Assembly: GCA_009695305.1 (NCBI GenBank)
Contig: SIBG01000008.1
Coordinates: 1-64,000 of the forward strand
Source: Opitutus sp.
Lineage (GTDB): Bacteria; Verrucomicrobiota; Verrucomicrobiia; Opitutales; Opitutaceae
Length of the DNA: 64,000 nt
Reading direction: 5' to 3'
Part shown: positions 1,785-57,661 of the stretch, piece by piece
Layout of the letters: the number at the start of each line of letters is the position of its first letter
Numbering within the stretch: the stretch's first letter is position 1
Position numbers and translations under genes: made by a program
Notes under the pieces: generated by a model
The model's input: the letters and a program-made list of their open reading frames with translations, nothing else
The model's database searches: none
What the model was told of the DNA's origin: nothing

Positions 1785-2987
1785 ATGCCCGCGACTCCGC
1801 CATTTTCCACGTCTCCCCTTCCGCCTCCGCTCCTCCCCAGCCAGCCGCTCACGGCCCTCGCGCCGATGCAGGATGTCACCGACCTCGCGTTCATGCGGGT
1901 TATCGCGCACTACGGCGCCCCGGATTATTTTTTCACCGAGTTCTTTCGCGTCCACGCGCACTCGCGCCCGGAAAAGCACATTCTCCGCTCCATCGACGAA
2001 AACACCACCGGTCGCCCCGTCTTTGCCCAACTCATTGGAGAAGACCTCGGCCACCTCACGCGCACCGTCGCCGAACTGCTGCGCCACCGCATCGCCGGGA
2101 TCGATCTCAACCTCGGCTGCCCCGCGCCAAAGGTTTACAAGAAAAACGTCGGCGGTGGTCTCCTGCGCGATCCCACTCGCGTCGGTGAAATCCTCGCCGC
2201 TCTGCGCGCCGCCGTGCCCGGCCTCTTCACCGTGAAGATGCGCCTGGGCTTCGATGACACCGCGCACTTCGACCGCCTCCTCGATCTCATCAACGAGCAC
2301 CGCGTCGATCTCCTGAGCGTGCACGGCCGCACCGTGAAGGAAATGTATCGCAGCGAGGTTCACTACGATTTCATCGCCCGCGCCGCCGCGCGCGTCCGCT
2401 GCCCCGTGTTCGCCAACGGCAACATCACGTCCGCCGCCCGCGCCGTCAGCGTCCTCGCCGAGACCCGCGCCGCCGGCGTGATGCTCGGCCGCCACGCCAT
2501 CCGCAATCCCTGGATTTTCCGCCAGTGCCGCGAGCAATTCGCCATCACTCATGGTGCGTCAGCGCCGGTAGGGCGGGTTATCCCTAACCCGCCGCCTCCG
2601 ATTTCCGCCGCCGACCGGCGCGTTAAGGATCACACGCCCTACCCGCCGGCCATCTTCCGCCCCGCGCTCGCTGACGTGCGGGAGTATGTGGAGCGCCTCT
2701 ATCGTGCGACGCAGGCGCCCGGCCTGCCCGAGCGCGACCACGTGAATAAGATGAAGAAGTATCTGAACTTCGTCGGCCAGAGCGTGGACGCCACCGGCGC
2801 CTTCCTCCACGACATGCGCCGCGCCGAATCCGAACTCAATCTCTTCGCGATCTGCGACCGCCATTTGCTCTCCGAGCCGACGCGCGCGTTTTCCTCCGAG
2901 CCTTACCCCGGCGTGATCGCCCGGCCAAATTGCGAAACGCCCATCGTCGTCGCCGATGGGTGCTCGCTCGAGACGATCACCGCTTAG
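1785..2987 (+). CDS. dus: tRNA-dihydrouridine synthase, with an in-frame repeat insertion
   Basis: 'LTALAPMQDVTDLAFMR', 'GIDLNLGCPAPKVYKKNVGGGLLRDP', 'FTVKMRLGFDD', 'VHGRT', 'VFANGNI', 'GVMLGRHAIRNPWIF' are Dus family motifs. Confidence 0.92.
   Translation: MPATPPFSTSPLPPPLLPSQPLTALAPMQDVTDLAFMRVIAHYGAPDYFFTEFFRVHAHSRPEKHILRSIDENTTGRPVFAQLIGEDLGHLTRTVAELLRHRIAGIDLNLGCPAPKVYKKNVGGGLLRDPTRVGEILAALRAAVPGLFTVKMRLGFDDTAHFDRLLDLINEHRVDLLSVHGRTVKEMYRSEVHYDFIARAAARVRCPVFANGNITSAARAVSVLAETRAAGVMLGRHAIRNPWIFRQCREQFAITHGASAPVGRVIPNPPPPISAADRRVKDHTPYPPAIFRPALADVREYVERLYRATQAPGLPERDHVNKMKKYLNFVGQSVDATGAFLHDMRRAESELNLFAICDRHLLSEPTRAFSSEPYPGVIARPNCETPIVVADGCSLETITA
2567..2643. repeat. Palindromic element A, copy 1 (in frame within dus)
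   Basis: GGTAGGGCGGGTTATCCCTAACCCGCCG is shared with 18521; degenerate right arm CGGCGCGTTAAGGATCACACGCCCTACC. Confidence 0.85.
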
Positions 2988-18520: not shown

Positions 18521-18600
18521 GGTAGGGCGGGTTATCCCTAACCCGCCGTCTCAGGATTCTCGCATGCGGCAAAGCGGCGGGTTAGCGATAACCCGCCCTG

Positions 18601-18601
<1 letters not shown>
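18521..18601. repeat. Palindromic element A, copy 2 (most intact)
   Basis: GGTAGGGCGGGTTATCCCTAACCCGCCG-TCTCAGGATTCTCGCATGCGGCAAAG-CGGCGGGTTAGCGATAACCCGCCCTGC: two hairpins that are also mutual inverted repeats. Confidence 0.9.
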
Positions 18602-19188
<587 letters not shown>

Positions 19189-40356: not shown

Positions 40357-41138
40357 CCAACCAGCAGCGCACCGACCTCATCGAGCGGCACCTCCGCGAG
40401 CACAAATACGCCGACTTGCAATCACTCGCCGCGCGCTTCAGCGGCTCCCTCTCCACCGTTCGCCGCGCCCTCGATCAGCTCGAGGTCCGCGGCATCGTCC
40501 GCCGCCATCACGGCGGCGCCTCGCTCATCGAAACCGACGCCTTCGCGCAGGAATACGATTTCATCGCCCGCAATCAGCGCCAGGCCGACGAAAAATTCGC
40601 CATCGCCAGCCTCGTCGCCAGCCAGGTGCGCCCCGGCATGACCGTCATCCTCGACGGCGGCAGCACGACCTACGCCGTCGCCCGGCTGCTCGCCGAGAAG
40701 CGCCTGCAGGTCATCACCAACTCGCTCCCCATCGCCAGCTTCTTCAGCGATATTGGCAACGTCGAAACCATCGTCACCGGCGGCAGCATTTACAGCCGGC
40801 TCGGTTTCCTCGTCGGTCCGCAGTGCGAACAGTCCTTCGATCAGACCCACGCCGACCTCGCGATTCTCGGCGGCACTGGCATCACCGAGAGCGGCGTCTG
40901 GAACCAAAATGTCGTTGTCGGCGCCGTTCAGCGCAAAATGATCGCCGCCGCCGAGCGCACGATCTTCGTCCTCGACCAGTCGAAGTTCGGCCGCAAGGCC
41001 CTCAGCCTCACCGCCCCCTTCGATCCGCGCTTCACGATCGTCACCGACACGCGCCCCGCGCCCGCCGTCGCCCGCGCCATCACCACTGCCGGTGCCAAGC
41101 TCACCCTCGCTGAAAAAAAATCCGCGGCGCGCCCATAA
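40353..41138 (+). CDS. DeoR/GlpR family transcriptional regulator
   Basis: 'RTDLIERHLREHKYADLQSLAARFSGSLSTVRRALDQLEVRGIVRRHHGGA', 'VILDGGSTTYAVARLL'; ATGA overlap with the GT4 gene. Confidence 0.93.
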   Translation: MTNQQRTDLIERHLREHKYADLQSLAARFSGSLSTVRRALDQLEVRGIVRRHHGGASLIETDAFAQEYDFIARNQRQADEKFAIASLVASQVRPGMTVILDGGSTTYAVARLLAEKRLQVITNSLPIASFFSDIGNVETIVTGGSIYSRLGFLVGPQCEQSFDQTHADLAILGGTGITESGVWNQNVVVGAVQRKMIAAAERTIFVLDQSKFGRKALSLTAPFDPRFTIVTDTRPAPAVARAITTAGAKLTLAEKKSAARP

Positions 41139-55725: not shown

Positions 55726-56739
55726 ATGATTTTTTCGCGCCCACTGCCCGCCGTGATTTTGTTCGCCACCCTCGGGTCCGTGGCCCTGGCCGCCACCCCG
55801 GTCCGCGCCAAACCCACGCGCCCCACCACGCCCGCTGACTCCACCGCCTACAAGGCCGCCATCATCACCGACGCCGCCACCGGCAACACGTTGTTCGAGG
55901 ATCGCGCCGACAACGTCAGTCCGCCCGCGAGCATGACGAAGCTGATGACCTTCGCGGTGCTCCACGACAAACTCGCCAGTGGGGCCGTCACCCTCGATCA
56001 GGCCGTCCGCATCACTGACGCCGATGCGAAAATCGGCGGCTCGCAGGTCTACCTCGATCCGCGCGAGACGTTTCCCGTCGAAGAACTCGTTTATGCAATG
56101 ATGATCCATTCGGCCAACGACGCCGCCCACGCGCTCGCGCGCACCGCGGCCGGCTCGATCGACGCCTTCGTCGAGTTGATGAACACCAAGGCCCGCGAGC
56201 TTGGCATGACGCACACCACTTTCCACACGCCGCACGGCCTCCCGCCCGCCACCCGCCGCGCGGAGGAAGGCGATCTCACTACGCCACGAGATTTCGCCCT
56301 GCTCGCCCGCTATCTCGTCCAAAAAACGAACGTCTTAAAATACTCCTCCATCCGCACGCGCTCCTTCGGGGCCGGCGTGCGCGCCAAGCCCTTCGACCTG
56401 ACCAATAGCGACCATCTCATCGGCCGCGTCGCCGGCGTCGACGGCCTGAAGACCGGCTTCACCAACGGCGCTGGTTTCTGCCTGACGGCGACAGCGCTGC
56501 GCAACGGTCGCCGCGTCATCGTGGTTCTCATGGGTGCCCCGGAGTCCAAGGTCCGCGACCTCAAGGTCACCGAGCTGCTCGACCGCGGATTCGCTGCGCT
56601 GCCGGTCGGTGGCCCGGCCTTCGCCGCCGCGGAATCCTCTCCCATCGCCGCCGCGCCGCTGCCCGCTCCTACTGCGAAAGCGGCCAAACCCGACGCCGGC
56701 CCCGCGATCAAGTTCTCAATTCCGCCGGCGAAAAGGTAG
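55726..56739 (+). CDS. D-alanyl-D-alanine carboxypeptidase (penicillin-binding protein 5/6-like)
   Basis: 'SPPASMTKLMTFAVL' (SxxK), 'SANDAA' (SxN), 'KTGFTNGAGFCLTATA' (KTG). Confidence 0.93.
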   Translation: MIFSRPLPAVILFATLGSVALAATPVRAKPTRPTTPADSTAYKAAIITDAATGNTLFEDRADNVSPPASMTKLMTFAVLHDKLASGAVTLDQAVRITDADAKIGGSQVYLDPRETFPVEELVYAMMIHSANDAAHALARTAAGSIDAFVELMNTKARELGMTHTTFHTPHGLPPATRRAEEGDLTTPRDFALLARYLVQKTNVLKYSSIRTRSFGAGVRAKPFDLTNSDHLIGRVAGVDGLKTGFTNGAGFCLTATALRNGRRVIVVLMGAPESKVRDLKVTELLDRGFAALPVGGPAFAAAESSPIAAAPLPAPTAKAAKPDAGPAIKFSIPPAKR

Positions 56740-56946
56740 GGCGCGTTATCCCTAATACCAACGTCTGTTAATATTTGGATTGTCATGGCGAGGAGCGAAG
56801 CGACGAAGCCATCCAGCTGGATCGCCACGGCGCGCTTCGCGCACCTCGCGATGACAAAAGTCTAATTCACAACAGCCGGAGGTATAACGCGCCGCTCAGG
56901 ATTTTCGCGCGGGTTGAGTCGGCGGATTAAAAATAGTCCGTCTACC
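56735..56946. repeat. Palindromic element A, copy 3, interrupted by a MITE-like element
   Basis: 56735-56755 plus 56888-56946 reconstitute ~80 bp matching copy 2; ends GGTAG...CTACC. Confidence 0.8.
56756..56884. mobile_element. 129-bp MITE-like element nested in element A
   Basis: Imperfect TIRs TACCAACGTCTGTT...GTCATGGCGAGG / CCTCGCGATGAC...AACAGCCGGAGGTA; flanking TAA direct repeats at 56753-56755 and 56885-56887. Confidence 0.7.
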
Positions 56947-57661
56947 GCTCGAGCACGAGCACCAGCACGCCCAACCCGGTAAACAGCACCCCAAGCAGGC
57001 CGGCCTCGTAGCGCTCGAAGAATTTTACCTTGAAGCGTTCCAGCCCGTGCAATGCCAGGGAGGTGAACAACAACATCGCGGCCAGCGCCGCCACCGCGAG
57101 AATCGCGCTGAGGGTGAAGAATCCCATCCGGCCAAACTTAACGCCCGCGAGGTAAATGGGCAGAAAGCCTTCGCACGGAGACAAGGTGAGCATCAGGAAC
57201 AATCCGCCCACCGCGGCCCGGTCGCCGCTCGTCGCCGACACGAGGGCGGTGTCCTTCAGTTCCTCGTCCCAATGCGTATGGTCCTGCTCGTGCCCGCAGT
57301 GCTCACTCACATGATGATGCCCACCGGGGACCGGATGATGGCAGATGCCGCCGCCGCGCCATTGCCGCCAGAAATAAAGCAAGCCCATCGCGCCCAGAAA
57401 TCCCGCGGCGACCCACGGAAACGCCGCGCCCACCCGTTCATCGAGTTTGAAACCAAACCACGCAATCACCAGGCCAAGCAGGCTCGTCAACGCCACGTGC
57501 CCCGCGCCGGCCAGCGCCACGACCCCGAGCGTCTTGGCGTGCGACCATCCCCGCGCCCGCGACACGAGCACGAACGGCAGCCAGTGCGTCGGAATCGCCG
57601 CATGAAAGAACGCCACGGTAAAGCCGGTCGCGGCGATGGTCGAGAGAGCGGTGGAGTTCAT
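56942..57661 (-). CDS. Polytopic membrane protein with His-rich loop (UreH/NicO-like metal transporter, tentative)
   Basis: Six or so TM segments; 'HHPVPGGHHHVSEHCGHEQDHTHWDEE'. Confidence 0.65.
   Translation of the reverse strand: MNSTALSTIAATGFTVAFFHAAIPTHWLPFVLVSRARGWSHAKTLGVVALAGAGHVALTSLLGLVIAWFGFKLDERVGAAFPWVAAGFLGAMGLLYFWRQWRGGGICHHPVPGGHHHVSEHCGHEQDHTHWDEELKDTALVSATSGDRAAVGGLFLMLTLSPCEGFLPIYLAGVKFGRMGFFTLSAILAVAALAAMLLFTSLALHGLERFKVKFFERYEAGLLGVLFTGLGVLVLVLER

Follow-up and report, generated by a model that had tools for sequence, protein, structure and literature searches.

The window analysed here (a stretch of 64,000 nt of Opitutus sp. DNA) includes a D,D-carboxypeptidase (Peptidase_S11) gene and a gene coding for a His-rich membrane protein that converge on a repeated element of 212 bp, located between positions 56735 and 56946 (Table 1). 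The element starts with GGTAGGGCGCGTTATCCCTAA and finishes with GTCTACC. Gene coordinates bear out the initial annotation, according to which the element exactly fills the gap between the two genes and carries within its ends both flanking stop codons: the reading frame of the carboxypeptidase gene closes at the TAG at 56737-56739, and that of the His-rich gene at the CTA at 56942-56944, a TAG on the minus strand. The His-rich protein, of 237 amino acids counted from the start used here, is conserved within the same family of bacteria; when Pfam and NCBIfam were searched with it, no match was obtained. An Rfam search of the region yielded nothing above threshold.

Table 1. Coordinates of the features at the locus, of two further copies of the repeat in the window and of the transposase gene elsewhere in the genome
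Feature	Position	Strand	Remarks
REPIN, same family, complete, 77 bp	2567-2643	.	in frame within the dihydrouridine synthase (Dus) gene 1776-2987
REPIN, same family, complete, 82 bp	18521-18602	.	starts 30 bp past a stop codon
D-alanyl-D-alanine carboxypeptidase (Peptidase_S11) gene	55726-56739	+	stop from the left end of the element
Left REP, 5' part	56735-56755	+	GG-TAG head, stem GGCGCGTTA, loop TCCC, 3' stem start TAA
Nested insert, second repeat family	56756-56884	.	TACCAACGTC...GGTA ends around the GTCATNGCGAGG palindrome; splits the left REP
TAA	56885-56887	.	repeat of 56753-56755; probable target duplication from the nested insert
Left REP, 3' stem	56888-56893	+	CGCGCC, displaced
REPIN spacer	56894-56920	.	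includes the family motif TCAGGATTTTCGC
Right REP, inverted, degraded	56921-56946	-	GGTAGACGGACTATTTTTAATCCGCC on the minus strand; holds the His-rich gene stop 56942-56944
His-rich membrane protein gene	56942-57655	-	stop from the right end of the element
RAYT (REP-associated tyrosine transposase) gene	C27:40456-40917		between mreB and mreC

A REPIN interrupted by a second repeat

The element had initially been described as palindromic. Its ends are indeed inverted REPs, but the 212 bp do not form a single palindrome: they correspond to an 80-bp REPIN, which is the length left when the 129-bp foreign insert and one TAA are removed. The REP unit consists of a GGTAG head followed by the short palindrome GGCGNGTTA-TCCC-TAACNCGCC, as in GTAG-tagged REPs, which are headed by GTAG or GTGG, and two such units in inverted orientation, separated by a spacer, make up the REPIN; the right one is degraded, with 11 mismatches. 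The length of 212 bp is accounted for by a second short mobile repeat that would have jumped into the left REP, probably after the REPIN itself had arrived. The insert belongs to an abundant repeat family unrelated to the REP, the palindrome core of which has 235 matches in the genome at ≤2 mismatches (27 for the control), and several of its copies have TACCAACGTC-type ends in common. Additional copies of this second family, with ends like TACCAACGTCCC and the GTCATNGCGAGG palindrome, were seen in L042, L043, L048 and L074.

As to the REP itself, the arm GGTAGGGCGNGTTATCCCTAA occurs five times in the window, with none expected from shuffled sequences. The genome, searched as an incomplete assembly of 4.29 Mb (87% complete, 136 contigs), contains 72 matches at ≤3 mismatches, compared with a single one for the reversed-pattern control, and hence the many dispersed copies by which a GTAG-tagged REP is recognised. 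These 72 arms belong to about 49 elements. All 23 complete REP pairs are arranged head-to-head and 17 of them measure 77-83 bp; within GGTAG, the T and the G are near-invariant and the A at the fourth position is present in 60 of the 72 arms.

Two of the complete copies lie in the window, at 2567 and 18521, and the initial annotation had considered them alike to the element at the convergent pair. They do belong to the same family, and the TCAGGATTNTCGC middle is found at 18521, but it is absent from the copy at 2567; nor is the CTACC arm common to all copies, as the right end at 18521 is degenerate (...CCCTGCG). Neither of the two donates a stop codon, one being intragenic and in frame and the other lying beyond a stop. 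Both intact copies fold as single long hairpins, as expected of REPINs (z = -3.8 for the first and -6.9 for the second versus shuffles). The intragenic copy adds about 26 residues to the dihydrouridine synthase protein. Palindromic repeats in frame inside genes are also known from the rickettsial palindromic elements (RPE), the sequences of which differ from that of the Dus gene copy; the available text of PMC3733652 counts RPE-4 and RPE-6 among the CGTC repeats and describes these as not associated with transposase genes, unlike the REP studied here, which is linked to a RAYT.

Some REPINs of 114-116 bp carry another REP-like palindrome in their spacer (L087 2567-2682, L066 2061-2174, L073 12127-12241). 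From these spacer palindromes, several REP families coexist and nest.

The transposase between mreB and mreC

Y1_Tnp matches in the genome number 12. The RAYT gene located between mreB and mreC is flanked by perfect inverted copies of the same REP, at 40410 (+) and 40917 (-) of contig C27. Its product scores 83.2 bits against the NCBIfam equivalog NF047646 (cut-off 80), has TnpArep (4er8) as its sole sequence match in the PDB and includes an HUH motif (MPDHLH) and a Tyr motif (YLRLNPVRSGL). Inverted flanking REPs, HUH, catalytic Tyr and RAYT signature are thus all found, as in a REP-RAYT system (REPtron). The relative G003 (5,957,605 bp) encodes an orthologue, 60-61% identical, at the same place before mreC and likewise flanked by inverted REPs. 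A RAYT precedes mreC in two genera, and in the source genome it also follows mreB; both there and in G003, the stop codon of the RAYT gene (TAG or TAA) is inside its own 3' REP (L006 1547-2011; L079 1671-2153).

The same REP flanks three RAYTs that are ~60% identical (L100, L254, L255), a quick scan of the flanks of two others of similar identity (L256, L271) found no matching inverted REPs, and more distant RAYTs have GTAGGG repeats with other stems. This distribution of RAYTs and REP stems among the relatives is the known co-evolution pattern of the two partners (PMC2817692). With the described RAYT/TnpA-REP proteins (PMC2817692, PMC8266576; PDB 4er8), the RAYT reported here shares the HUH and Tyr motifs, the two inverted flanking REPs, an above-cut-off match to NCBIfam REP_Tyr_transpos and flanks compatible with CT cleavage. 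It is the likely mover of the repeat and presumably active in transposition: it would recognise the single-stranded GTAG with its hairpin, cleave beside it and join it elsewhere.

The two bases that precede GGTAG are purine-rich, with A at -1 in 38 of 72 arms (background 17.6%) and GA in 21 of 72; in the relative G004, A occupies -1 in 18 of 21 cases. The REP variant of the latter genome is TTAGCCCTAA, mostly with CGA preceding GGTAG (L236-L253). An A before GGTAG means a CT step on the other strand at the boundary of the element, and a CT beside the REP is where the TnpA-REP proteins of E. coli and Stenotrophomonas cut (PMC8266576). Flank composition fits CT cleavage by the RAYT; alternatively, the purine-rich flanks may be sequence of the element itself.

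Stop codons donated by the element

Orthologous gene pairs were compared, as the initial annotation had proposed. The convergent pair has readable flanks in 17 relatives, and in all of them this REP is absent, the gap measuring 3-153 bp. Sixteen of the 17 have TGA, at the same codon, as the stop of the His-rich gene, and one has TAG (G083, which lacks the REP); the stop of the carboxypeptidase gene varies (TAA in 10, TAG in six and TGA in one). On both sides, many relatives have protein ends that coincide with those seen here, exactly or with a difference of one or two residues; the carboxypeptidase closes with R in place of K, its last codon being filled by the GG of the GGTAG of the element. 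As 16 of the 17 relatives use TGA in the His-rich gene, the TAG was brought by the element, which had not aimed at a pre-existing TAG. The comparison with relatives indicates that in the His-rich gene the former stop gave way to that of the element, and that in the carboxypeptidase gene the element either took the stop over or renewed it. The right REP being degraded, the TAG at that end could in principle be mutational, and G083 has a TAG at this stop without the REP. The closest relative found shows about 77% protein identity, and for this reason the exact insertion point is not readable at base level.

In one relative, G081 (L129), a different GTAG REPIN, GTAGGGCGGCGTCTTTGACCCGCC, occupies the same orthologous gap and donates no stops; such convergent gaps are therefore repeated landing sites.

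Ends of the repeat were then tabulated against stop codons in 262 kb of genome stretches, with a simple codon-usage gene caller that misses some flanking genes, so that some stop contacts may go uncounted. A strong enrichment at gene 3' ends was obtained: relative to a stop codon, 17 of 73 ends lie between -2 and +4, compared with 0.4% of random intergenic points, and the excess is significant even with an expectation of 1% (binomial <1e-17), the null being a rough yardstick as it consists of intergenic points alone. Nine ends in the source genome donate TAG by way of GGTAG, and the L066 element, a second one of this kind, does so at both of its ends. In G003, seven of 39 ends touch a stop and five of these donate TAG; in G004, two of 21 ends touch a stop and none of the 21 donates a TAG. 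Where an end merely abuts a stop, this is TGA in most cases, and 10 of the 49 elements are intragenic.

Six donated stops, chosen for usable relatives and hence not a random sample, were compared with their counterparts: those of the carboxypeptidase, the His-rich protein, malate synthase (L091), short-chain dehydrogenase (L084), LptF/G (L069) and a poly(A) polymerase-like protein (L066). In five of the six, the protein ends within about one residue of the end in the closest relatives, the exception being the poly(A) polymerase-like protein, mostly several residues shorter than its relatives. Several insertions thus fall precisely where the ancestral stop is inferred to have been.

Interpretation and precedent

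We conclude, with a probability of roughly 0.93, that the element is a REPIN, formed by two head-to-head GTAG-tagged REPs and a short spacer, at the convergent 3' ends of the two genes; this figure covers the whole of the explanation, i.e., REPIN identity, the RAYT as likely mover, stop replacement and the later nested insertion. With GGTAG at both outer ends, an in-frame insertion at the last codon of a gene would give a TAG stop. At the present site this happened on both sides, the TAG taking the place of an ancestral stop (in the His-rich gene, TGA) without a shift in codon position, so that both proteins kept their length. The placement of the copies would reflect target preference combined with the survival of those insertions that do no harm.

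The suggestion, made in the initial annotation, that the element is targeted to TAG stops is not supported, and for the right-hand side of this site it is rejected: TGA is the stop there in 16 of 17 relatives, abutted stops are mostly TGA, 10 of the 49 copies lie within genes, and the TAG forms part of the GTAG head of the element. A different form of targeting would be a RAYT target that recurs at gene ends (e.g., an A|G step, CT on the other strand), the stop being swapped for TAG upon insertion. The stop contacts (17 of 73 here versus 0.4%, seven of 39 in G003), protein length kept to within one residue at five of the six TAG-donating ends tested, and the frequent A at -1 in both the source genome and G004, giving a CT step at the boundary where TnpA-REP enzymes cleave (PMC8266576), speak in favour of it. 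Against it, 10 of 49 copies are within genes and many others far from stops, G004 has no donated stop among its 21 ends, the purine flank could belong to the element, the length comparison spans six ends picked for usable relatives, and targeting can be mimicked where the gaps are very short (3-153 bp) and only harmless insertions survive. We hold stop-codon targeting to be improbable, and slightly more so that the RAYT of Opitutaceae-like bacteria prefers stop codons by means of a short gene-end step, converting TGA to TAG with length kept and damage avoided.

Still less likely is that the element is kept as a bidirectional RNA boundary at the convergent 3' ends, acting as hairpin terminator, in protection of mRNA 3' ends or in ribosome stalling. 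Convergent gaps are over-represented among the sites (12/37 versus 24/178 gene pairs; Fisher p = 0.013), the whole-element RNA folds very stably (z -6.1), and in E. coli, translation has been reported to be lowered by REPs that lie no more than 15 nt from a stop (PMC12306157). Nevertheless, any REPIN folds stably by nature, neither REP is intact, the right one being in decay and the left one interrupted, and 17 relatives keep the gene pair without the element. No terminator-like site was found between 56735 and 56946, where an intrinsic bidirectional terminator would show a G+C-rich hairpin plus T run on each strand, and a search for a promoter in the same interval was equally negative. That two unrelated sequences ending in TAG should coincide by chance with the two stops is very improbable: although TAG accounts for 42 of 140 baseline stops, the L066 copy also supplies both neighbouring stops, and TAG is donated via GGTAG at nine ends here and at five in G003. 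Genome-wide counts (72 arms versus one in the control, together with the enrichment of stop contacts) lead us to reject chance.

The REPIN reading has clear precedents. The inverted REP doublet with spacer, the predicted long hairpin and the cognate RAYT are shared with the REPINs of Bertels and Rainey (2011, PMC3116915), from which the present family differs in sequence and phylum, and the present copy in being degraded and interrupted. In the available text of PMC3733652 (2013), GTAG repeats are reported in Opitutus terrae, and their ends are said to provide neighbouring ORFs frequently with a TAG stop. The GTAG-tagged REPs of O. terrae and others described there have, like the present family, a GTAG head and a short stem-loop, and form head-to-head dimers; in Verrucomicrobia their copies occur both between and within genes. 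A bias towards 3' ends and convergent gaps, and TAG donation, are likewise in common. They differ in that an ancestral-stop comparison is given for the element reported here, that text containing no such analysis. Stop donation by such repeats was hence already described in 2013, and the present case is tidy but ordinary. Taking into account this earlier report, the case serves as a worked example and offers a testable hint that gene ends are preferred as targets; new with respect to it are the cognate RAYT locus, the nested insert and the evidence, drawn from relatives, that the element brought the TAG with it. With relatives as the reference, the case illustrates how the stop codons of host genes can pass to a selfish repeat without protein change, and a defined REP-RAYT pair, between mreB and mreC, is now at hand in Verrucomicrobia.
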